Virus record (IMG/VR): IMGVR_UViG_3300046656_000237
Location: 1-20,982 of that record
Source of the DNA: a virus
DNA: 20,982 nucleotides
Reading direction: 5' to 3' (one strand)
The notes beneath the pieces were generated by a model. It saw only the letters and a program-made list of their open reading frames with translations, did not search any database and was not told the origin of the DNA. Position numbers and translations under genes: made by a program. Of this stretch, positions 2,746-20,955 are shown piece after piece; position 1 is the stretch's first letter; each line of letters opens with the position of its first letter.

Positions 2746-3204
2746 TTATGCAGTTTGAATCGGTCGGTAAGATGCCACGAATCGCTTTGCCCAGGTGGGG
2801 TCGAGGAGCGTGCGCTTCATGACACCTTCGCCACTGATTGCGTGGATGAAGAGTTGAGAACCATCGTCCAAGTACACCCCGAGATGGTACACTACGCGAC
2901 CGTGGGTAAAACAGAGCAGATCGCCTACCGCATGTTCTCCGCTCTCGATCTTCCGAAAGCACGGGCAGTTCTCAATCCATTCGACCACAGGGCTCGCACG
3001 CAGCCCTTTCCACGCGCCAATCGTGTACGGCGGCGCGGTGAACTCGTTCAGCAATCCGGTCTCCAGGTACAGCGCGACCGCGAGTTGGATGCAGTCGACT
3101 CCGATGCCGCGCGTTCGCCAGTGGTCTCTGAAAGGGGTCCCACACCACGAGGCGGCGGAAGTCTTGAGGAGATACTGACGGTTAAGATTGAAGTATGAGA
3201 TCAT
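2746..3204 (-). CDS. NlpC/P60-type tail peptidase (cell-wall hydrolase)
   Basis: A 152-residue protein of the NlpC/P60 cysteine peptidase type, expected to cleave peptidoglycan stem peptides during DNA entry. The catalytic cysteine is probably C38 in GVDCIQL, where the family usually has G.DC.gL. The histidine is probably H107 in VVYHLGVYL, and H121 in FIHA is a candidate third polar residue. The length fits the compact single-domain form found in GTA gp14 and lambda gpK-like proteins. The ATG overlaps the stop of the preceding hub gene (ATGA), so translation is probably coupled. The order hub, peptidase, tip protein matches the GTA g13-g14-g15 order, which supports the call. No signal peptide is seen, as expected for a virion component. 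Confidence 0.85.
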   Translation of the reverse strand: MISYFNLNRQYLLKTSAASWCGTPFRDHWRTRGIGVDCIQLAVALYLETGLLNEFTAPPYTIGAWKGLRASPVVEWIENCPCFRKIESGEHAVGDLLCFTHGRVVYHLGVYLDDGSQLFIHAISGEGVMKRTLLDPTWAKRFVASYRPIQTA

Positions 3205-4679
3205 TTTTTACCTGCGGTTCCGCTTGCGACCTCGATGGCCTTGATTGTTGGATTGACTCGTGGAACGTCCACGAATCCAGGGAAATTGATCTCGTTTCCG
3301 AAAACGTCTTTGCACGTCGAGTAGAATCGGTCGCACCCGCGCCGAATGATTCCGGCCACTGGGACCGTCTGGTGGACAAATCGTTGGGAGAGTTTAAGCA
3401 CAACCGCACCACCAGAGGCAGCCCCGGAAGCGACTATCATGCGCTCCTCAATAGCCGGTTCGGTACCAACCCGAATCCACCCGCCTGCAAAAAAGTCCGT
3501 CGGATAATCTCCAGGATCAGTTCCGAATTTAGTAGCGGTAACGGTAACGGTGGTATCGCTTTGAACCGTCATAGAAATAATCAACTCGAAGTCCGGGTCA
3601 GTATGAGAAGCAGCAACGGCCTTGCATGTGAGCGGGTCGTACAGGTGATAATGGCAACGCGGTTGAATCGTCCGCCCGGGAAATTGCCGGCGGACCGCAT
3701 CAAACCAATGATCGAATGGAAGCCGACATTGTGCTCCGTCGAACTCTGGTCCGGAACATTCGCCGGCGAAATACAAGGTTCGCAGACTAGGCAACGGTGC
3801 ATTGACCTCATACAGGTTCAGGTTGAGCGGTCGCGTGGATGGAAACGGTAGTTGCAAAGCCCATGGAGCGTCGGCGTGCCAAACTGCGTCAATGGAGATC
3901 TCGGAGCGGTCGGCCTTTGTCGACTGTTTGTGTGAGCCGTGCGTGAGGTTGAACGGCTCGAACACGTCGCCGGCGCTGGTGATCTGCGCAGCGAATGAGG
4001 TATAGCGCCAATGGTGCTCGGTCGAGTCTCCATTGTCCTGCCAGAAATCGTACAGGTAAACCGGCCGCTGTCCCGTATCGGCTCCGGCATATTCCTCCGG
4101 CAACTCGACGACTTTGACGCTCTGTGTGTAAACGCCTTCTGTGTGCGCCACGGAGCGCTCGACATCGTCGGCCAGACGGACGTACAGCAGGCGATAAAAT
4201 CGCCACGTTGAGTCAGGCGTGGCGCCTAGACTCGTGGCCACCGTGACGCGCTCCACTCCGGCAGACGGTGAATTCACCGACACGACGGCCAGAGCGATCG
4301 TCGTTCCATCCGGCTTGACCACGTACAAGTGAACGCTGGAGTCGTCAGTCCAGGTCTGCGCGAGATTCTGGGTTTTAATGTCAAAGACAGTGTCGCTCGT
4401 GGCGCTGAGAACGAACCATTGCAATGCGAGGTTCGGGAACCAAAACCCGTCGAGCTTGCCAGTTCGCGCGGCGGTGAAGGTGGAAAAGTCCGCGAACTCC
4501 TGCGCTGTCCCGAATGTGAAATCCATCGACCAGCCGCGAACGACCATCCTCTGCGTCGGCGCGTAAGTAGACGATCCAAACCCGCGCCGAATGCCACGCA
4601 AGTCGTAATCGAATTCCTCGACCGGGCCAGTGAGCCAGTTCGGTTTTACTTCTAGGATGGGACGAAAGAGATAGCTCAT
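3201..4679 (-). CDS. Tail hub protein, DUF2163/BR0599-like (GTA g13-like) with distal-tail-like N-terminus
   Basis: A 492-residue structural protein. The C-terminus carries the conserved cysteine-rich signature of the BR0599/DUF2163 family: GCDR at C449, then C456, then FGNEINFPG and VPRVNP. A second pair of cysteines occurs earlier (CHYHLYDPLTC). In GTA this family forms the hub above the peptidase and tip protein. The first 100 residues (LRGI, RGWSMDF, EFADFSTFTAARTG, FWFP) resemble distal-tail (DUF2460-like) proteins instead, so this may be a fusion of two neighbouring tail functions. Both ends overlap neighbours by 4 nt. A full GGAGGTGA ribosome site lies 7 nt before the ATG. Residues 81-95 are encoded by the 46-bp segment that recurs in the methyltransferase gene. 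Confidence 0.7.
   Translation of the reverse strand: MSYLFRPILEVKPNWLTGPVEEFDYDLRGIRRGFGSSTYAPTQRMVVRGWSMDFTFGTAQEFADFSTFTAARTGKLDGFWFPNLALQWFVLSATSDTVFDIKTQNLAQTWTDDSSVHLYVVKPDGTTIALAVVSVNSPSAGVERVTVATSLGATPDSTWRFYRLLYVRLADDVERSVAHTEGVYTQSVKVVELPEEYAGADTGQRPVYLYDFWQDNGDSTEHHWRYTSFAAQITSAGDVFEPFNLTHGSHKQSTKADRSEISIDAVWHADAPWALQLPFPSTRPLNLNLYEVNAPLPSLRTLYFAGECSGPEFDGAQCRLPFDHWFDAVRRQFPGRTIQPRCHYHLYDPLTCKAVAASHTDPDFELIISMTVQSDTTVTVTATKFGTDPGDYPTDFFAGGWIRVGTEPAIEERMIVASGAASGGAVVLKLSQRFVHQTVPVAGIIRRGCDRFYSTCKDVFGNEINFPGFVDVPRVNPTIKAIEVASGTAGKK
4394..4439. repeat. 46-bp direct repeat, copy A (inside hub gene)
   Basis: Exact copy of positions 19660-19705, same orientation. Here it encodes residues 81-95 of the hub protein (FPNLALQWFVLSATS on the minus strand), which fit the surrounding fold. 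This is therefore probably the original copy. The segment contains the 10-bp palindrome CATTGCAATG, with CGAACC and GGTTCG as flanking inverted arms. Confidence 0.95.
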
Positions 4680-6256
4680 GTTACGGTCACCTCCCCATCC
4701 CCGGTCGCAACCTGCTCTTTGCTCCGGAAAACCTTGAACAAGTGGCCATGAAAATCCTCCACCTGTTGCCAGCCGAACCCGTTGGTTTCGCCTCGACCAG
4801 CTCCGGCTCCGCCGAGTTCCGCGAGGCTGGCCATATCAATCGAGAAAGTGAGCGGCTCCCACGGGGCCTCGTCCGCGATAGCAAACACCCAGAAGCCGGG
4901 CAATGGGTGGTAGTGCCAGATCATTCCCACGCTCACCTCTACAGTTTGAGATTCGATGTCAACGGCTGGCTCGTTGTCGGAAACTACGGTAGTAACGTGA
5001 ACATTAGCTGCCCCATCTGAATTGAAAGTTACTCCGCCACTACCGATAAGAGAGGCCCATTCCGGGCTGGATGAAGTAATGGTTTCGCTTGCGCTGCTGG
5101 ACCCGGTGACTGGAAATGTAGCACCGCTTGTCCCGTCATAATCGAGAGTTCCATCATACGTTGGAAGTGAAACCGAGGTCGGTACGGTGGTAGTTAGTGT
5201 GTCAATTGGGTTGCTGCTTGGCCAGTAGAAAGAGCCGTCACCAGCGATCGAAATCACCGCAGTCAAAGCGGGAATATTTACGTTCTCAACTTTCAGCCCT
5301 GCCGATATTGCCAGCGAATAAACAACCTCGACGGAGAGCGGTGTGCCGTAGATCGATGAGTCGAACTTTAGAACCGGAATACCAACGGGTCCCCAAGGCA
5401 CGTCTGCCGGTGAGGCATTGATGCCGCTATATGCTATGGTCTGAACCAAATCCCCAGGAATGCCGGTATAAAGGTAGGTACCGGGCAATTCAACCTGCTC
5501 AACATGGGTCAACTTGTTGTTCTCCAGGCCACCCCAGAAAAGTTTTTCCATATCCAGCAGGTCGTTGAAATCCTGTATCCACTCCCCTTCGGCGTCGAGT
5601 CCAACACGGCCGTGGTATATCCCATAAGTCAGCTCTGCTGGCGGCGGGCAGACTCCTATCGGAAGGGTCGGTGGGGCGTCCTGCTCAATGGCGAACGTCC
5701 ACGCGCCGAGGTAGCCAGCGATCATCGGGTGGGTGTCACCAGTGAAGGCGCCAACGATCATCGGGTAGCAGAGCGTCCCGGCCCTCCACGTTCGCGACAG
5801 GGGATCGTCAATCGTGATGACGTTGCCGGCGACGGAAGCCACGGTGCGCACATCGAATGACGGCTGGCTGGCGTCGCTCTGCTCGAGGATGATAACGAAG
5901 TCCCCGGCCGCCGGCAGCCATGGGCTCGAGGCCACGGTGACCGTGCTGGCGCCGGAAGCGGCGGTCACAATTCGCATCCCACGGCCGAACCAAGGCGCCG
6001 CGGCACGCCCTGAGCGTTTGGCGGCCTGCATGCGCGCCTCTACCCGAGCTTCCTCCTGCTCGTTTAGGGTGGTAACCGACCAGCGCAGCGTGTGCACCGG
6101 GACGGCTCGGACCGCAGACCGTTCCTCGATCCCGGTGAGTCCCAGCGCGACTTTCGTTTCCCACCGGCGGGATAGCTGGGGCTCGGTAGACCAGTCGGCC
6201 CGGTGCGGCAGGAGGACGTAGTCAAGCCCGCCCGTTGTAACGACCTCAGCCGACAT
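4676..6256 (-). CDS. Distal-tail-like structural protein
   Basis: A 526-residue protein between the tape measure and the hub. The N-terminal 200 or so residues follow the same plan as the N-terminus of the next gene product. Both have a W-rich start, a conserved R.SGRAAAPWF (compare AARTGKLDGFWF), then about 90 residues of beta structure, then CYPMIVG...GAWTFAIEQD (compare LLYVRLA...TQSVKVVEL). This suggests a distal-tail fold used twice. The central part (about residues 265-420) is rich in serine, threonine and valine and AT-richer, and may be an inserted surface domain. The C-terminus (WHYHPLPGF...FGWQQVEDFHGH) is distinctive but not recognised. The ATG overlaps the tape-measure stop region and has a GGAGG site 6 nt upstream. 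The role is inferred from gene order. Confidence 0.6.
   Translation of the reverse strand: MSAEVVTTGGLDYVLLPHRADWSTEPQLSRRWETKVALGLTGIEERSAVRAVPVHTLRWSVTTLNEQEEARVEARMQAAKRSGRAAAPWFGRGMRIVTAASGASTVTVASSPWLPAAGDFVIILEQSDASQPSFDVRTVASVAGNVITIDDPLSRTWRAGTLCYPMIVGAFTGDTHPMIAGYLGAWTFAIEQDAPPTLPIGVCPPPAELTYGIYHGRVGLDAEGEWIQDFNDLLDMEKLFWGGLENNKLTHVEQVELPGTYLYTGIPGDLVQTIAYSGINASPADVPWGPVGIPVLKFDSSIYGTPLSVEVVYSLAISAGLKVENVNIPALTAVISIAGDGSFYWPSSNPIDTLTTTVPTSVSLPTYDGTLDYDGTSGATFPVTGSSSASETITSSSPEWASLIGSGGVTFNSDGAANVHVTTVVSDNEPAVDIESQTVEVSVGMIWHYHPLPGFWVFAIADEAPWEPLTFSIDMASLAELGGAGAGRGETNGFGWQQVEDFHGHLFKVFRSKEQVATGDGEVTVT
4687..4694 (-). promoter_or_regulatory. Strong Shine-Dalgarno site for the hub gene
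   Basis: The minus strand reads GGAGGTGA, a near-complete anti-16S match, 7 nt before the ATG at 4679. It lies inside the 3' end of the upstream coding region and fixes the start of the hub gene. It is the strongest ribosome site in the window. Confidence 0.8.
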
Positions 6257-8693
6257 GCCCGACCTCCAGGGACTGCTCCATCCCCATCCGCGTGTAGATC
6301 GACCGGCCCTTACGGCTCTGGGCCATCTTCTCCGCCGCCGCCATGCTGTCGACCACGATGAAATGCGTGGTTCCCTGCGCTCCGCCGGGGGCCACTCCGG
6401 TGCCCTCGTGCAACGCGGCTAGTGTCGGCACCCCGATGCGTTGCACTGCCGGCGCCGAGAAGACGTACTCGCCGGCATGGACGATTCCGGCCGGCTGGGA
6501 GGCTGGCCCAGGGCCGGTGAACCCGCCAGCCTCGAACGCCCCGGCGGCAGCAGCAGCGACCAGCCCAACGCCCGCCAGCACGGCAGCCAGCCCCAGCCAG
6601 CCCGCTGCCCCGTAGGAAGATACGGAGGTGAAGAATGCCACGATGCCAGCCCCGACCGCTTCAATGGAATTCGCCGATGTTGCCGCCGCCTGCTTCGCCC
6701 AGATGCCAGCGATCCAGGCCGCGAACATCCTGACGATCCCCTGAATGACCGCGTCCATCACGTTGGTCCCGATGTTCATCAACGCGTTGCCCCAGGTCAT
6801 TGTGCCACGTAGAACGCCGGAGATCCCGGCGGAGATTCCGGAGAACGCGGTCTGGAACACGTTGCCTACGGTCTGCGCGGTCGCGCGCGCGAAGGTGCCG
6901 ATGGCGTCGAGTTGCTTTTTCCACTCCGAAGCCATCTGCTTCGGGAAACTGAAGGGGTCGGCACCTTGCGCGTCGAGTTGACGGCCGACTTGGATTGCCT
7001 GCGCATCGAATCCGGAAGCCCTGCCAAGTGCAGCGTCCGCCTCTTTGCCAGACAACCGGCTTGCCGCCTCGCGTTGCAACTCCGCTTGCCTGGTGCGAAT
7101 CTCCAACTCCTCCAGCAAGATAGCCCGGCGCTTTTGCCACTTCTCTGCCTCGGTCATGGCGAAATCGTTTTCGATGGCGAATCGCTGCTGTTCGAGTTCA
7201 TTAAGGCGCGCGGCCTTCACTTGCATTTCGTCCGTGACGTCGCGTAGTTTGGAATATGTGACCAAAAGATTTGAGCTTGAATGGTTCAACTCTTCGGTCG
7301 CGTGGTGGCTCCCTTCGATGGCCTTGGTGACTCCACCTTGCGCCTCCTCCATGAGCTTAGCCATCCGCTGCTGAGGACTACCGGCCCCGCCAAGTCCGCC
7401 AGGAGTTCCAGCCGAACCGGCCGCTCCAGGTATGAGCGCCAGGATTATGCTGCTATTCCAATCGTCCAAAGTCGCCGTGAATTCATCCAGCTTTGCCTCC
7501 ATCTCCTTTCCTCTGGCGGCCAGAGCTTCCTGAAATCCAAGGCTTTTCCGCTCCAATGGAGGAGCGTTGCTAACGGTTATGCCGATAGCTCCATATAATG
7601 TTTTTATTCCCGAAGAAATCTTGTTCAATGATTCATTAAACTTATCTTGAAAAGCGCTTAAAATGTAGTCGATCGTTCCTATAACTGTCGTTAGGACTGT
7701 TATCAACGCAGTCCCTACTGCCTTTGTGAGTCCGAACAAACCAGTAGAGATCGCTGACAGTATTATTTTGCCAATATCCCAAGCCTCCACGAGCTTGCCC
7801 ATTCTTGACAGCGCCTCGTTGAATAGTTCGACTGTTTTGTCAAAGCCGATCTCAAAACTCAGCGCAACGAACTCGCCGAACCGGCCGGCCTTCCAAGCAT
7901 TGATTGCAGCAATTACGAACGCGCCAAACTTCTGACCGATGGCCGTAAAGTCGACGGAATTGGAAATGGCTTTGATTCGATCAGCCAGTTCAGTGATTGG
8001 CAGATTGTCAAGTATGCCGGCAAACAGCTTAACTCCGAATGATGACAGCACGGAAAGCGAAACGTGTAGCTCATGCAAAGGATGGGCCAGTCGGGCCATG
8101 GCTTCCCCGAATGTTCCAGCACCGCCGGCCAGATTCTTAAAAAAGCTTCCATCCAACAGAGCTGGCAATATCTGCCCGCCGGCCCGGCCAAAAATCTCAA
8201 TGGCCAGCGCAGCTCGTTCGGCCGGATCATTTATACTCACCAATCCGCGGGCGATTGTCTCAAACTGCTTCGTTGTATCTTGAGACAGCAGGTCGCGAAA
8301 CGAAATGCCAAGTCGGGTAAACTTTTCCTCTCCAACGCCACCAGAAACAGCCACGTCATAGATGGCCTTCTCCATCTTGTTAATGAGCGGTCCAACTTCC
8401 TCAGCAGACGATCCTCCAAGCTCAAAGGCCTTTCGCAAAACTATCAACTGTTGGATCGCAATCCCAGTCCGCTTCGTTAATATGTCTAGCGAAACGCCCA
8501 GCTCATAGACTTTATGAATGTTTTGGGTGGAAACAATCGCCCCAATTACTGCCGTCACAGGGGCCGCCCACTTCGCCACGAGACCCGTAATTCCGGCCAA
8601 GCTATGCTCGATGCTCTTGAACGCATTCAGAACGGAGTTGAGCCCCGTAACTCCCAGGGCAATCTGAATGCTATTTTGAGTTTGCGTCGCCAT
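6246..8693 (-). CDS. Tail tape measure protein
   Basis: An 815-residue protein that sets tail length and is ejected on infection. It is the largest gene after the chaperone pair, as expected for lambda H-type proteins. It has long helical stretches with E/K/R/Q-rich coiled coil (about residues 440-600) and several hydrophobic segments, the clearest near residues 690-718. The C-terminus contains AGGFTGPGP...GIVHAGEYVFSAPAVQRIG, a hallmark of lambda-type tape measures. Taking about 1.5 Angstrom per residue, the tail would be roughly 120 nm (inference). The start overlaps the frameshifted chaperone gene by 23 nt, with a weak GGGAAA ribosome site. The stretch at about 7560-7760 is visibly AT-richer than the rest, suggesting mosaic exchange. 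Confidence 0.9.
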   Translation of the reverse strand: MATQTQNSIQIALGVTGLNSVLNAFKSIEHSLAGITGLVAKWAAPVTAVIGAIVSTQNIHKVYELGVSLDILTKRTGIAIQQLIVLRKAFELGGSSAEEVGPLINKMEKAIYDVAVSGGVGEEKFTRLGISFRDLLSQDTTKQFETIARGLVSINDPAERAALAIEIFGRAGGQILPALLDGSFFKNLAGGAGTFGEAMARLAHPLHELHVSLSVLSSFGVKLFAGILDNLPITELADRIKAISNSVDFTAIGQKFGAFVIAAINAWKAGRFGEFVALSFEIGFDKTVELFNEALSRMGKLVEAWDIGKIILSAISTGLFGLTKAVGTALITVLTTVIGTIDYILSAFQDKFNESLNKISSGIKTLYGAIGITVSNAPPLERKSLGFQEALAARGKEMEAKLDEFTATLDDWNSSIILALIPGAAGSAGTPGGLGGAGSPQQRMAKLMEEAQGGVTKAIEGSHHATEELNHSSSNLLVTYSKLRDVTDEMQVKAARLNELEQQRFAIENDFAMTEAEKWQKRRAILLEELEIRTRQAELQREAASRLSGKEADAALGRASGFDAQAIQVGRQLDAQGADPFSFPKQMASEWKKQLDAIGTFARATAQTVGNVFQTAFSGISAGISGVLRGTMTWGNALMNIGTNVMDAVIQGIVRMFAAWIAGIWAKQAAATSANSIEAVGAGIVAFFTSVSSYGAAGWLGLAAVLAGVGLVAAAAAGAFEAGGFTGPGPASQPAGIVHAGEYVFSAPAVQRIGVPTLAALHEGTGVAPGGAQGTTHFIVVDSMAAAEKMAQSRKGRSIYTRMGMEQSLEVGHVG
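6263..6267 (-). promoter_or_regulatory. Shine-Dalgarno site for the distal-tail gene
   Basis: The minus strand reads GGAGG, 6 nt before the ATG at 6256 and within the tape-measure coding region. It supports that start and translational coupling of the two genes. Confidence 0.65.
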
Positions 8694-9009
8694 AATTTCC
8701 CGCCGCTTTCAAGAGTTCACCGCGGACTTTCTCGTACCCACTCCGGCTTTCGCGTGAAGCCCCCATCCCAGTTGCTCCAATCGCGGCCGTGACCGCGTCG
8801 AGTAACCGAAGCTGGCTGCGCGCATTTTTTCGCAGGCAAGCAGCCTCTAAGTCGAAAAGCCAGCCGAGAGGTTCCTCGATCAGCACTCCACGGCTGAATC
8901 CGCTCTCGGCTGACAAATCGGCCAGCCATTGGATCAGAGACCGGGCGGCTTCCCGAGCATTTCGGTTAGCGTTTTTCCAACCCGCTCCATTCCGTCTTTC
9001 CAGGCGCGA
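8671..9009 (-). CDS. Tail assembly chaperone C-terminal extension (gpGT-type, made by -1 frameshift)
   Basis: This open frame has no good start of its own: the first usable codon is a TTG at 8916 with no ribosome site. It is open without a stop back past the run of seven T at 9009-9015 in the upstream gene, in the -1 frame relative to it. Slipping there joins 86 residues of the upstream product to 112 residues encoded here, giving a protein of about 198 residues. That layout is the same as lambda G/GT and many long-tailed phages. The extension is helical (LIQWLADLSAESG, LFDLEAACLRKN, LRLLDAVTAAIG) and ends 23 nt inside the tape-measure gene. In lambda the T domain binds the tail tube protein during assembly. 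Confidence 0.8.
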   Translation of the reverse strand, partial: SRLERRNGAGWKNANRNAREAARSLIQWLADLSAESGFSRGVLIEEPLGWLFDLEAACLRKNARSQLRLLDAVTAAIGATGMGASRESRSGYEKVRGELLKAAGNYGDANSK

Positions 9010-9266
9010 AAAAAAGGCTCGTTCAGCTTCACCCCTTCCTCAACGATGGCGAACAGGCTATCAGGTTGCACCTGCTCGCACCAATCCGCCGTCTTGCCCG
9101 TGAATAGCTGCGCGGCCTGTATCGGGTCCTTCAGCGCTTCCAATGTCTGCTGCGCTGTCTTGAGCGTGATCGCTTTGATGCGGACTTTGTCGCGCGTTCC
9201 GTCCAGCTTGAGGTACTCGACCTCTTTTCCGGCGCGGATCTTAACCCAGTCGGTCTCCTCGCCCAT
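8934..9266 (-). CDS. Tail assembly chaperone, unshifted form (gpG-like)
   Basis: A 110-residue protein lying between the tail tube region and the tape measure. It is lysine- and glutamate-rich with mixed helix (ITLKTAQQTLEALKDPIQ, LFAIVEEGVKL). Lambda-type gpG proteins coat the tape measure before tube polymerisation and are not in the finished virion. The identification rests on position, size and the slippery run T TTT TTT at codons 84-86 (CCT TTT TTT), which links it to the -1 frame downstream. No sequence similarity to lambda gpG is claimed. The ATG follows the preceding stop by 1 nt (TAATATG) and has no evident ribosome site, so translation is probably coupled to the upstream gene. Confidence 0.8.
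   Translation of the reverse strand: MGEETDWVKIRAGKEVEYLKLDGTRDKVRIKAITLKTAQQTLEALKDPIQAAQLFTGKTADWCEQVQPDSLFAIVEEGVKLNEPFFRAWKDGMERVGKTLTEMLGKPPGL
9009..9015 (-). other. -1 ribosomal frameshift slippery heptamer T TTT TTT
   Basis: Seven consecutive T on the minus strand. In the zero frame of the chaperone gene they are read as the third base of CCT followed by TTT TTT. This is the canonical X XXY YYZ arrangement, so both P- and A-site tRNAs can re-pair fully after slipping back one base. The -1 frame is then open for 113 codons including stop. No obvious stimulatory pseudoknot was identified by eye, and lambda also lacks an obvious one. Confidence 0.8.
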
Positions 9267-9267
9267 A

Positions 9268-9645
9268 TTAAGGCTGGGCCAGAACGGTTACGGTGCCGTT
9301 CGTACCGATGCACTTCAGGATATTGCTCACGGCGAAGACTACGAAACCGTTCGTCGGCGTTCCGGGAGTCGAAGCGAAGTTCTGAAGCAAAAAAGCACGC
9401 GCTCTGAAGTCCGCATCGGCGGAATCGCTTGCCGTGCGAACCTGCAAAGTTGCCCCGCTACGCTTGAGTGCCGGATAGCTGGCGCTGGTTCCGCCGAAAC
9501 ATAGGCGAGCGTAGTCAGCCCCGGTGTTGTCCATCAGCAGATGAATGCCAGTGCCTATTGGAATTATGTAACTGTCGAGCGTTGTGGCAGCCACGACGGC
9601 GAGCGCGCTGCCTGCCAGGATGAGGACTTTGAATTTGGTGCGCAT
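9268..9645 (-). CDS. Secreted small tail-region protein 2 (signal peptide, fibre-like C-terminus)
   Basis: A 125-residue protein with a clear Sec-type N-terminus: MRTKFK, then a hydrophobic run (VLILAGSALAVVAA), then a polar mature region starting about residue 21. The middle (FGGTSASYPALKRSG, then LQVRTASDSADADF) resembles a motif found in many phage fibre and appendage proteins. The last 30 residues match the last 30 of the upstream gene product at about half of positions (shared pattern PT.GF..FA..N.LK.IG.....TV.A.P), so the two genes are related. No ribosome site is seen; the leader is A/C-rich and G-poor. Function is unknown. An exported protein inside a tail operon is odd and could act at the cell envelope, or the hydrophobic N-terminus could have another use. 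Confidence 0.7.
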   Translation of the reverse strand: MRTKFKVLILAGSALAVVAATTLDSYIIPIGTGIHLLMDNTGADYARLCFGGTSASYPALKRSGATLQVRTASDSADADFRARAFLLQNFASTPGTPTNGFVVFAVSNILKCIGTNGTVTVLAQP

Positions 9646-9663
9646 AGGTAATTTGTTTTGGTT

Positions 9664-10266
9664 TTAAGGAAGGGCGATAACCGTGATATGGTTGCTGACT
9701 CCGATTACCTTCAGGACGTTTGTCTCGGCGAAAAGTATGAATCCGTCCGTCGGGGCGGCCGGTGCGGAGCTGCTGGCAATCCGCATCTTGGCGATGACGG
9801 GAACTCCGTTGAAGATTGGAGATGTCACGTTAGCCTTCAAAAGCAATTCGTCGTTAAAGTCGTTCGTTATTGCACTGATAGTTGCGTTCCACTCCAGCGT
9901 AGAAGGAATCCCGGAGCCGACATAAGCTATCGCGTTGGTGATGCGTGCCGACAGTGCGTAGATGTTCGTGTTGTCCGGTATATCCAAATATACATGACGA
10001 TCCGGTGCTGCCGTCCACATTTCGTAAATCCCGGGCTTGAAGTCGCCTGTGAAAAATCCGTTCGTGGTCGTTCGGTAGATGAACCTTGAACCAATGATCA
10101 AATCCGGGTCATCAAGCAGCGGGGTACTCAATGGCTTGAAAGTGACGGGCCCGTAGTAGGCCGTTCCATTGCCATGCAGGAATGTGTTCGTGAGCGTTGC
10201 GGACTGGACGGCGAGCACGCCTATGGCGAGCACCAGCGCGACGAGCGAAAGGTATTTTGAGCGCAT
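9664..10266 (-). CDS. Secreted small tail-region protein 1 (signal peptide, paralogous C-terminus)
   Basis: A 200-residue protein with a Sec-type N-terminus: MRSKY, a hydrophobic core (LSLVALVLAIGVLAV), then a likely signal peptidase I site after QSA at about residue 23. The mature part is beta-rich and Asn/Thr-rich. A segment near residues 75-100 (FKPGIYEMWTAAPDRHVYLDIP) may form a beta-sandwich, and residues 141-155 (LLLKANVTSPIFNG) resemble fibre-type linkers. Residues 171-200 match the C-terminus of the following gene product at about 15 of 30 positions. It sits 5 nt after the tail tube gene. No Shine-Dalgarno sequence precedes the ATG. No family is recognised with confidence; tail appendage, head-tail decoration or envelope protein are all possible. 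Confidence 0.7.
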   Translation of the reverse strand: MRSKYLSLVALVLAIGVLAVQSATLTNTFLHGNGTAYYGPVTFKPLSTPLLDDPDLIIGSRFIYRTTTNGFFTGDFKPGIYEMWTAAPDRHVYLDIPDNTNIYALSARITNAIAYVGSGIPSTLEWNATISAITNDFNDELLLKANVTSPIFNGVPVIAKMRIASSSAPAAPTDGFILFAETNVLKVIGVSNHITVIALP

Positions 10267-10271
10267 ATTGC

Positions 10272-10805
10272 TTAGGCTTCAATGATGGTGTTCGCGGCAG
10301 CCATATAGACATCGACCATAAGAGACGTGGTCACTACGTCGTTTCCGAACGTGACATTTCCGTCCACCTTCCCGCTGCCGTAGAAATCATGCGTGAACAG
10401 GTGCGCATTTTGCTGATCGTACTGCTCCACACGAAACCACCCTTCGCGCCGCGGGATTGCGAAGGGCGTGATTGGGCTGGCTTCCTCCAGGTCCTGCGCT
10501 CCGAAGATCCAGCGCAAGAGAACCGGGTCGAGTTCTTTCAAGGTAAATTTCCAGGCCGCTTCGTACTCCGTCGTTAGGGTCGCCGTGAGCACTCGCGCGC
10601 CCGGGTTTGGGCAGAAAACTTTTTTATCCTGACTGGTCTGGGTCAGTTCGGCCGAATCAACGCAGGGCAAAACAAATCCTGCATCGTCGTCCGTTTCTGC
10701 CACCGGCTTATTGGTTATGCTCACAACACCTGTAGCCAGCGTGGCGCCAGCCGGCCAGAACGTCAGGTGGTTGCCGATTATCATGCTGCGGGAAGTAAAG
10801 GACAT
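10272..10805 (-). CDS. Major tail tube protein
   Basis: A 177-residue, beta-rich protein in the usual tail tube slot, after the tail terminator and before the chaperone pair. Features that fit include a strand-rich N-terminus (ITNKPVAETDDDAGF), a central segment with alternating hydrophobics (LTATLTTEYEAAWKFTLKELDP), and a C-terminal TTSLMVDVYM strand of a tube-forming beta sandwich. It resembles tube proteins from GTA-like or metagenomic siphoviruses more than lambda gpV in length, having no extra Ig domain. The ATG is 12 nt after the previous stop. The leader (AACCCTTTATTGAT) lacks a Shine-Dalgarno sequence even though this should be one of the most highly made proteins. Confidence 0.7.
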   Translation of the reverse strand: MSFTSRSMIIGNHLTFWPAGATLATGVVSITNKPVAETDDDAGFVLPCVDSAELTQTSQDKKVFCPNPGARVLTATLTTEYEAAWKFTLKELDPVLLRWIFGAQDLEEASPITPFAIPRREGWFRVEQYDQQNAHLFTHDFYGSGKVDGNVTFGNDVVTTSLMVDVYMAAANTIIEA

Positions 10806-13967: not shown

Positions 13968-13981
13968 CTACCCTATGCGCA

Positions 13982-14011
13982 GAATCGGAAATTAGATCGG
14001 AAATTAGGATT
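13982..14011. repeat. 30-bp direct repeat, copy 1 (before protease gene)
   Basis: Identical to 15747-15776. It consists mainly of two tandem copies of the 12-mer CTAATTTCCGAT (minus-strand reading; 13984-13995 and 13996-14007). The portal stop codon TAA lies in it, and a second in-frame TAA follows 12 nt later. It ends 14 nt before the protease ATG. Confidence 0.95.
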
Positions 14012-15733: not shown

Positions 15734-15746
15734 CTACTTTACGGCC

Positions 15747-15776
15747 GAATCGGAAATTAGATCGGAAATTAGGATT
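15747..15776. repeat. 30-bp direct repeat, copy 2 (before gpW-like gene)
   Basis: Identical to 13982-14011, same orientation, with the same tandem 12-mers (15749-15760 and 15761-15772). It ends 13 nt before the gpW-like ATG. The base patterns after both copies also agree at the ATG (GTAGATG in each). The stop of the small open frame 15769-15954 falls at the same point as the portal stop in copy 1. Confidence 0.95.
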
Positions 15777-19641: not shown

Positions 19642-20955
19642 TCAGCAGGCGCGGTTTGCCGCTCGTGGCGCTGAGAACGAACCATTGCAATGCGAGGTTC
19701 GGGAAGTGGCGTCGGCCCATCGCTGAATAGCGACGGCCACATATCCGGGATCGATCTCAATGGCGCGGCACTTCCGGCCCAGTTGCTCGCAGGCGATGAT
19801 CGTCGTACCGGATCCGCAGAATGGTTCGTAAACCAGATCTCCGAATTGGCTGCTGTTGCGAATTGGCCGGGCCATGCACTCAACTGGCTTTTGAGTGCTG
19901 TGACCGGTGTCACTCCTCGAAGGTTTATTGATTTCCCAAAGCGTCGTTTGGTCCCGTCCGCCGCTCCACCGCCCCGGCTTTCCTTTGCGTACAGCGTACC
20001 AACAAGGCTCGTGCCTCCAGTGATAGTCACCGCGGCCGATCGCGAATTGCTGTTTGGCCCAGATTATCTGGCACCGGATTTCAAACCCAGCGGATTCAAT
20101 GGAGACTTGAACCTCGCTGGCACGCCGACCGGCGTGCCAGATGTATGCAACGTCGCCCGGAAACAGCTTCCACACCGGCGACCAGTCGGCGCGGTCGTCG
20201 TTCGCAACCTTCCCGATGGCTCGCCCATCGCTGGGCGAGCCATCGGCCCTCATTGCCTTGTTCCGCCAGTCCGCATCGTACTCCACGCCGTAGGGCGGAT
20301 CGGTGACCATCAGGTGCGGCTCGTCGCCATCGAGCAATGCTCTCACGACTGCCGGATCCGTGGAGTCTCCGCACGCCAACCTATGCGCCCCCAGCTCCCA
20401 AATCTGCCCCAACTTCACACCCCACTTCTTCGCCAACTCCGCGGCCATGTCGATCTGCGGCTCGGCGTCAACCGTGCTCTCGGGCGCCAAACTCGCCACA
20501 AGTTCCGCCAGCTTGTCCGCATCAAACCCCGTCAGCGCGCGTAAGTCCACATCGAGCCCGGCCACAATCTTCGCCAGGGCCGCGTCGTCCCACGTCCCGG
20601 CATGGTTGTTTGCCGCCAGCATCGCGGCCTGCTCGCGCTTGAGCGGCCATTCCACCTCGCGGTATGGGCATTGCACCCCGCCGAGCATGACGTAGCCACG
20701 CGCCACGGTTCCCCATTTGTCACGCGGGAAGCTGTCCTGAATGTGCAGCTTCGTGCCCGCTTCCTTGAACAAGGCCACCCGTTGGTTGCCGCCCACCAGA
20801 TGCCCGGTGGTGCGGTTATTCACAATGCCGGATAGGTCGCCGAATTCTTCCAGAGCATGGCGCAATGTTTCGGCAGCTTCCGGGGTTATGGTGCGCGGGT
20901 TCGCTGGGTTCAGCGCCAGCGTTGAAATGGGGGTTTTGGTCGTTTTGTGGGACAT
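19642..20955 (-). CDS. ParB-like nuclease/DNA amino-methyltransferase fusion, C-terminal frame altered
   Basis: A 437-residue protein. Residues 5-110 are a ParB/sulfiredoxin-like domain with its signature GHLVGGNQRV at 51-60. Residues 185-415 are an N4/N6 amino-methyltransferase: DPPYGVEYD (motif IV) at 219-227 comes before FCGSGTT (motif I) at 379-385 and AIEIDP (motif III). This is a beta-class order, so it should methylate adenine N6 or cytosine N4. Such fusions are common beside phage terminases and may protect DNA or mark packaging sites. From T417 to the stop, 20 residues come from a frame altered by a copy of a 46-bp hub-gene segment. Without 44 nt of it, the protein would end WADATGKPRLLK with its stop overlapping the terminase ATG. 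Catalytic motifs precede the change. Confidence 0.88.
   Translation of the reverse strand: MSHKTTKTPISTLALNPANPRTITPEAAETLRHALEEFGDLSGIVNNRTTGHLVGGNQRVALFKEAGTKLHIQDSFPRDKWGTVARGYVMLGGVQCPYREVEWPLKREQAAMLAANNHAGTWDDAALAKIVAGLDVDLRALTGFDADKLAELVASLAPESTVDAEPQIDMAAELAKKWGVKLGQIWELGAHRLACGDSTDPAVVRALLDGDEPHLMVTDPPYGVEYDADWRNKAMRADGSPSDGRAIGKVANDDRADWSPVWKLFPGDVAYIWHAGRRASEVQVSIESAGFEIRCQIIWAKQQFAIGRGDYHWRHEPCWYAVRKGKPGRWSGGRDQTTLWEINKPSRSDTGHSTQKPVECMARPIRNSSQFGDLVYEPFCGSGTTIIACEQLGRKCRAIEIDPGYVAVAIQRWADATSRTSHCNGSFSAPRAANRAC
19660..19705. repeat. 46-bp direct repeat, copy B (3' end of methyltransferase gene)
   Basis: Exact copy of 4394-4439 from the hub gene, same orientation, about 15.3 kb away. 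Here it is read in a different frame from copy A. It replaces the natural end of the methyltransferase, which identifies this as the inserted copy. Confidence 0.95.
20117..20140. repeat. Perfect 10-bp inverted repeat with 4-nt loop
   Basis: CTGGCACGCC (20117-20126) and its exact reverse complement (20131-20140) flank GACC. It lies in the methyltransferase coding region at the WHAGRRAS residues. It may only reflect codon choice. Confidence 0.8.
20213..20246. repeat. Perfect 15-bp inverted repeat with 4-nt loop
   Basis: Positions 20213-20227 and 20232-20246 are exact reverse complements around TCGC. The repeat is in the methyltransferase coding region, in the linker DGSPSDGRAIG shortly after motif IV. 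It would give a strong mRNA hairpin within the gene. Confidence 0.9.

Follow-up and report, generated by a model that had tools for sequence, protein, structure and literature searches.

Two adjacent genes in the tail operon of an uncultured virus, here called A and B, form an unusual feature that sequence analysis supports as real: they encode proteins of fibre-module type that start with Sec-type leaders, and they occupy a cargo slot between the tail tube and tail assembly chaperone genes. Our preferred reading, which we hold tentatively, is that A and B are accessory fibre-type proteins in a variable slot that are routed through Sec and most likely act on the envelope of the infected cell. 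The evidence pulls in two directions, as the other occupants of the slot look like virion parts, whereas the leaders of A and B look like working export signals.

The window, i.e., the whole 20,982-base fragment that was analysed, carries a siphovirus-type head and tail operon on its minus strand. The head part is ordered terminase, adaptor, portal, Clp-type protease, capsid, head closure, and tail completion; the tail part continues with tube, B, A, chaperone, tape measure, and distal tail genes. These are followed by an NlpC-position protein, a tip protein, and a collagen-like fibre (GPTGPTGATG; positions 2-349) that runs off the contig end and is likely the main fibre. Relatives of the window portal reside almost entirely within Verrucomicrobiota genomes, and the virus is a predicted phage of Verrucomicrobia-type bacteria. 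P8625 is the only isolated relative, with similarity in the head genes and tape measure; none of its proteins possesses a signal peptide according to its authors (PMC4642752). The original prediction had located A and B at positions 9268-10266, inside the tail operon between tube and chaperone, which the ORF list and the gene order on the minus strand bear out:

10272..10805, minus strand: tail tube gene, bounding the slot upstream, homologous to the tubes of contigs L206 and L044
9664..10266, minus strand: gene B (200 aa), an ORF with a signal-peptide-like leader, an unrelated middle, and a C-terminal module common to A
10201..10266, minus strand: signal-peptide-like leader of B, MRSKYLSLVALVLAIGVLAVQS, from the signal test, with a predicted helix at 2-31
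9667..9771, minus strand: C-terminal module of B (aa 166-200), from alignment to the end of A
9268..9645, minus strand: gene A (125 aa), an ORF with a leader (aa 1 to ~20), a fibre module (~aa 31-82), and a C-terminal module (aa 91-125)
9586..9645, minus strand: signal-peptide-like leader of A, MRTKFKVLILAGSALAVVAA, from the calibrated signal test
9400..9555, minus strand: fibre module of A (aa 31-82), with 27-45% identity to each of 19 fibre segments of other phages
9271..9375, minus strand: C-terminal module of A (aa 91-125), 49% identical to the end of B (E=3e-10)
8934..9266, minus strand: tail assembly chaperone, bounding the slot downstream (E=0.015 to PHROG 1442, tail assembly chaperone)

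The window tube matches those of L206 (E=1e-22) and L044 (E=3e-5), the latter of which matches a PHROG major tail protein, and the window chaperone gene is homologous to the chaperone-position genes of both contigs. Downstream of the chaperone, and overlapping it in another frame, lies an open frame without a good start (8671-8990). Similar start-less second frames are found in L044 and L251, possibly reflecting a programmed frameshift of the lambda G/GT type.

The claim that both proteins carry Sec signal peptides was upheld by a rule-based test that looks for a charged n-region, an uncharged hydrophobic core, and small residues at -3 and -1. Calibrated on the 46 proteins of a 50-kb stretch of E. 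coli K-12, this home-made rule set found all exported proteins (13/13) and flagged 2/33 of the others; it also flags 6/20 tape-measure homologues. Among 22 window proteins, A and B pass and the other 20 do not. Both n-regions read MR[TS]K (charge +2/+3), the h-regions of ~14 residues are short for a membrane span or anchor, and the cleavage options take the form A/V-x-A/S. By these rules, A and B display the hallmarks of Sec signal peptidase I substrates (positive n-region, core of 7-15 residues, small -3/-1 residues), and some Sec export of the two proteins is probable. A chance origin of the leaders is unlikely because of this anatomy and its recurrence on the fibres of other phages described below. 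Neither leader contains a lipobox cysteine, the first 48 residues of A and the whole of B being free of cysteine (A has two in total, B none). A and B are therefore not lipoproteins, and a reading of them as Llp/Rtp45-like lipoproteins was ruled out.

Downstream of its leader, A contains FGGTSASYPALKRSGATLQVR, one unit of a widespread phage fibre module recognizable by the motif FGGT..xPALKR. A DNA pattern for this motif retrieved at least 119 stretches from IMG/VR; among the matches listed, 82 ORFs carry the motif and read as fibre-type proteins, some with many tandem copies (e.g., L086). Single units match A with per-domain E values down to 8e-14, and proteins with the module include PHROG tail fibres. 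The unit in A shares 27-45% identity with 19 aligned segments from environmental phages. The difference is that proteins carrying the module are typically some 240-1600 aa long and mostly lack a signal, whereas A has 125 aa and a signal. In B, the link to fibres consists of a short stretch, LLLKANVTSPIFNGVP, whose likeness to a fibre repeat is apparent by eye only, and of the C-terminal end common to A. At the sequence level, A belongs to the fibre-module family, and A clearly and B probably appear to be built from tail-fibre modules. An origin of the A module in a host envelope gene was rejected: the module occurs in only 2/387 sampled Verrucomicrobiota genomes, both times as a weak match, and owing to this rarity it is regarded as phage material.

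Database searches with the complete proteins were less productive. No relatives of B and no full-length relative of A were detected, and single-protein searches of IMG/VR with A, B, tube, and capsid returned no direct relatives. Against 50,697 phage records, tblastn yielded nothing for A and chance-level hits only for B. Pfam offered no family for either protein, A matched PHROG 19576 (unknown function) weakly (E=0.01), and sequence matching to solved structures gave nothing. A model of A built from 20 sequences (mean pLDDT 64, pTM 0.33) places a small number of beta strands in the fibre module, and its best fold match in the PDB falls short of significance (E=2.4). The single-sequence model of B (pLDDT 38) is uninformative beyond the leader, which is modelled as a helix spanning residues 2-31 (pLDDT 75-79 for aa 1-20).

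A and B had been described as paralogues whose last 30 residues agree at about half of positions. The agreement was confirmed, with 17/35 residues identical over the last 35 (49%; 26/35 similar; E=3e-10). The likeness does not extend to full-length paralogy: the first 38 residues match weakly (34% identity, E=0.03), the middles do not align, and the fibre module of A is absent from B. Because the ends are alike and the middles unrelated, A and B are module-sharing neighbours rather than full paralogues. Modular fibre genes often have common ends and differing middles. For the C-terminal module common to both, a search with a DNA pattern found no match and a profile gave chance matches only; a resemblance to the ends of L101, L104, and L135 is visible by eye only.

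The slot was surveyed in 12 other contigs with homologous tube and chaperone genes, and accessory genes fill it in 12/12. In four of them, the slot holds a leucine-rich-repeat protein that begins 3-4 nt past the tube stop, right after the tail tube:

L044, 16145-17149: leucine-rich-repeat protein (Pfam LRR_4, E=3e-35)
L204, 17645-18586: leucine-rich-repeat protein
L250, 4771-5775: leucine-rich-repeat protein
L251, 4686-5747: leucine-rich-repeat protein

Such proteins of verrucomicrobial phages are unusual as candidate tail accessory proteins. The slot of L252 encodes a 919-aa protein. In the closely related contigs L206 and L253-L258, it encodes a repeat protein (~200 aa) together with a ~350-aa protein, whose L206 version matches a PHROG tail fibre (phrog_4176, E=1e-18). 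The contents in the 12 relatives perhaps represent three independent lineages. In this survey, which had been proposed as a check, the slot thus emerges as a predicted site of accessory cargo of tail or fibre type. No slot gene of the 12 relatives has a supported signal peptide (one short, unsupported L253 ORF was flagged). Within the tail type of the window, signal peptides are so far special to the window. As the relatives' cargo lacks a supported signal and one of its members is a predicted virion fibre, the slot taken by itself points to a virion role. The phrog_4176 fibre of L206 and L253-L258 resembles the A/B arrangement in that an accessory gene pair occupies the same slot between homologous tube and chaperone genes, but it possesses no signal peptide and no sequence similarity to A or B.

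Sec-like leaders recur on fibre proteins of other uncultured phages. A strict version of the signal test was passed by 8/85 distinct fibre-module genes versus 0/216 head and tube homologues (terminase, portal, protease, capsid, and tube; Fisher P=3e-5). Tape-measure homologues did not enter this comparison, since hydrophobic segments in their interior set off the rule. The carriers are L137, L139, L129, L194, L147, L181, L093, and L156, several of which clearly place the gene in a phage, beside portal, capsid, or tape-measure genes. The L137 protein (3874-6123) is a cysteine-rich tailspike with a signal peptide, a pectate-lyase domain, and an endosialidase N-terminal extension, and its gene adjoins the portal gene. 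The L139 protein ends in an S74 chaperone domain (above the Pfam cut-off) and matches PHROG tail fibres, the L129 protein matches a PHROG tail fibre (5e-31), and those of L194, L181, and L156 are encoded near capsid, tape-measure, or virion genes. Several of these signal-bearing fibre genes have a second signal-bearing neighbour; in L139, two adjacent short genes encode signal peptides, one of them with the fibre module of A, in a layout much like A/B. In the same contig, at 3003-6842, a run of about four short genes whose starts resemble signal peptides lies, with little space between them, directly before an endolysin-type gene (phrog_873 match). The proteins of the eight contigs thus resemble A and B in combining a Sec-like leader with a fibre module, and differ in being larger, in belonging to other phage types, and in gene position, which is close to portal, capsid, or lysis genes and not in the tube-chaperone slot. 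A limited literature search found nothing on signal peptides on tail fibres and was consistent with the original statement that no described system of this kind was known at the tube-chaperone position. It is possible, if doubtful, that some phages route a class of tail fibres and tailspikes through Sec, with periplasmic maturation, and that it takes lysis for these fibres to reach the virion or to mask receptors; A/B would be a minimal two-gene example.

Two alternatives would make A and B parts of the virion. They could be fibres that are exported and cleaved by Sec, fold and assemble in the periplasm, and join finished tails at lysis. This would accord with the tail fibre among the relatives' slot cargo and with the true fibres and tailspikes, bearing chaperone or beta-helix domains, among the other signal-bearing proteins. 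Cysteine content adds only a hint of a periplasmic route, as the 10.4 per 1000 in signal-bearing fibres versus 4.5 in the rest (P=0.014) comes from a post hoc comparison of six proteins in which host was not controlled; A has just two cysteines, however, and B none. For fibres of such a type, attachment after lysis is hypothetical, we know of no tailed phage that assembles fibres via Sec and the periplasm, and we regard this alternative as rather unlikely. Also unlikely is that A and B are ordinary cytoplasmic accessory fibres of the virion and that their hydrophobic N-terminus, instead of being a working signal peptide, is an anchor for assembly or for contact with the membrane. Their position in a virion operon, the accessory fibre and repeat proteins in the relatives' slot, and the fibre module in A would all suit such proteins, but the charge, length, and small-residue ends fit cleavable signals, none of the 216 control structural proteins looks alike, and the relatives' slot proteins do without such an N-terminus.

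Two further explanations appear weaker still. The variable, non-core nature of the slot cargo and the precedent of lambda Lom (PMC12309495) would be compatible with lysogenic-conversion cargo (a moron), in which secreted adhesin-like proteins alter the host surface for the benefit of the host and not for phage exclusion. Promoter and terminator signals that could set the pair apart are at chance level around A and B, which speaks against a moron and leads us to expect expression with the late genes; we consider this explanation improbable. That the leaders arose by chance or from misassigned start codons is highly improbable. No clear Shine-Dalgarno sequence precedes either ATG and internal GTG codons are present, yet the B ATG lies 5 nt past the tube stop and that of A 18 nt past B, the two starts read MR[TS]K, and each leader passes a test that 20 other window genes fail.

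In the preferred reading, exported accessory fibre proteins acting at the envelope, A and B would be synthesised along with the tail proteins, after which Sec would export them and they would be cleaved. Their site of action would be the periplasm or the cell surface, in an infected (or lysogenic) host. Their most likely use would be to occupy or mask the surface target recognised by the fibres of the window phage, such that the dying cell and its debris would neither soak up new virions nor admit a second phage. Given Sec export, an envelope role is favoured because the envelope is where exported phage proteins with a known function act. T5 Llp (PMC9586334) and Rtp45 (PMC12685063) are small exported proteins that block a receptor, as is Cor, covered in a review (PMC11436027), and lambda Lom has a signal peptide and is encoded between tail spike and fibre genes (PMC12309495). 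As small phage proteins acting at the host envelope, all four resemble A and B (PMC12309495, PMC9586334, PMC11436027, PMC12685063). The differences are that Lom is a beta-barrel, that Llp and Rtp45 are lipoproteins while A and B are not, and that none of the four has reported fibre modules or detectable sequence similarity to A or B. As no homology to these proteins was detected, the envelope role of A and B is an inference.

Four options had been offered for the pair. Fibre components gained support for A (module E to 8e-14; tail fibre in the relatives' slot), lipoprotein-like decoys were weakened by the missing lipobox, and envelope exclusion has the Sec signal that it requires, although no similarity of A or B to any known exclusion protein was found; an anchoring N-terminus is the unlikely alternative described above. 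The fibres of tailed phages are generally regarded as products of the cytoplasm. Cargo genes in tail operons, Lom for example, and tail fibres are each of a known kind; A and B combine a fibre module with a Sec-type leader. If fibre modules with Sec signals are truly exported in several phage groups, they would constitute an unrecognised periplasmic branch of fibre assembly or, alternatively, a case of phages re-using their own receptor-binding parts as secreted blockers.

The window also contains two pairs of direct repeats. A 33-nt repeat (97%) at 13979-14011 and 15744-15776, itself ATCGGAAATTAG twice in tandem, sits just upstream of the Clp-protease gene and of the adaptor gene and is possibly a regulatory element; ATCGGAAATTAG occurs as four perfect 12-mers in the window, with five matches at ≤2 mismatches versus 1.4 expected. 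A 49-nt repeat (98% identical) at 4391-4439 and 19657-19705, with 15.3 kb between copies, has one copy within a distal tail gene and the other at the 3' end of the DNA methyltransferase gene, and may be a recombination scar or an assembly effect.
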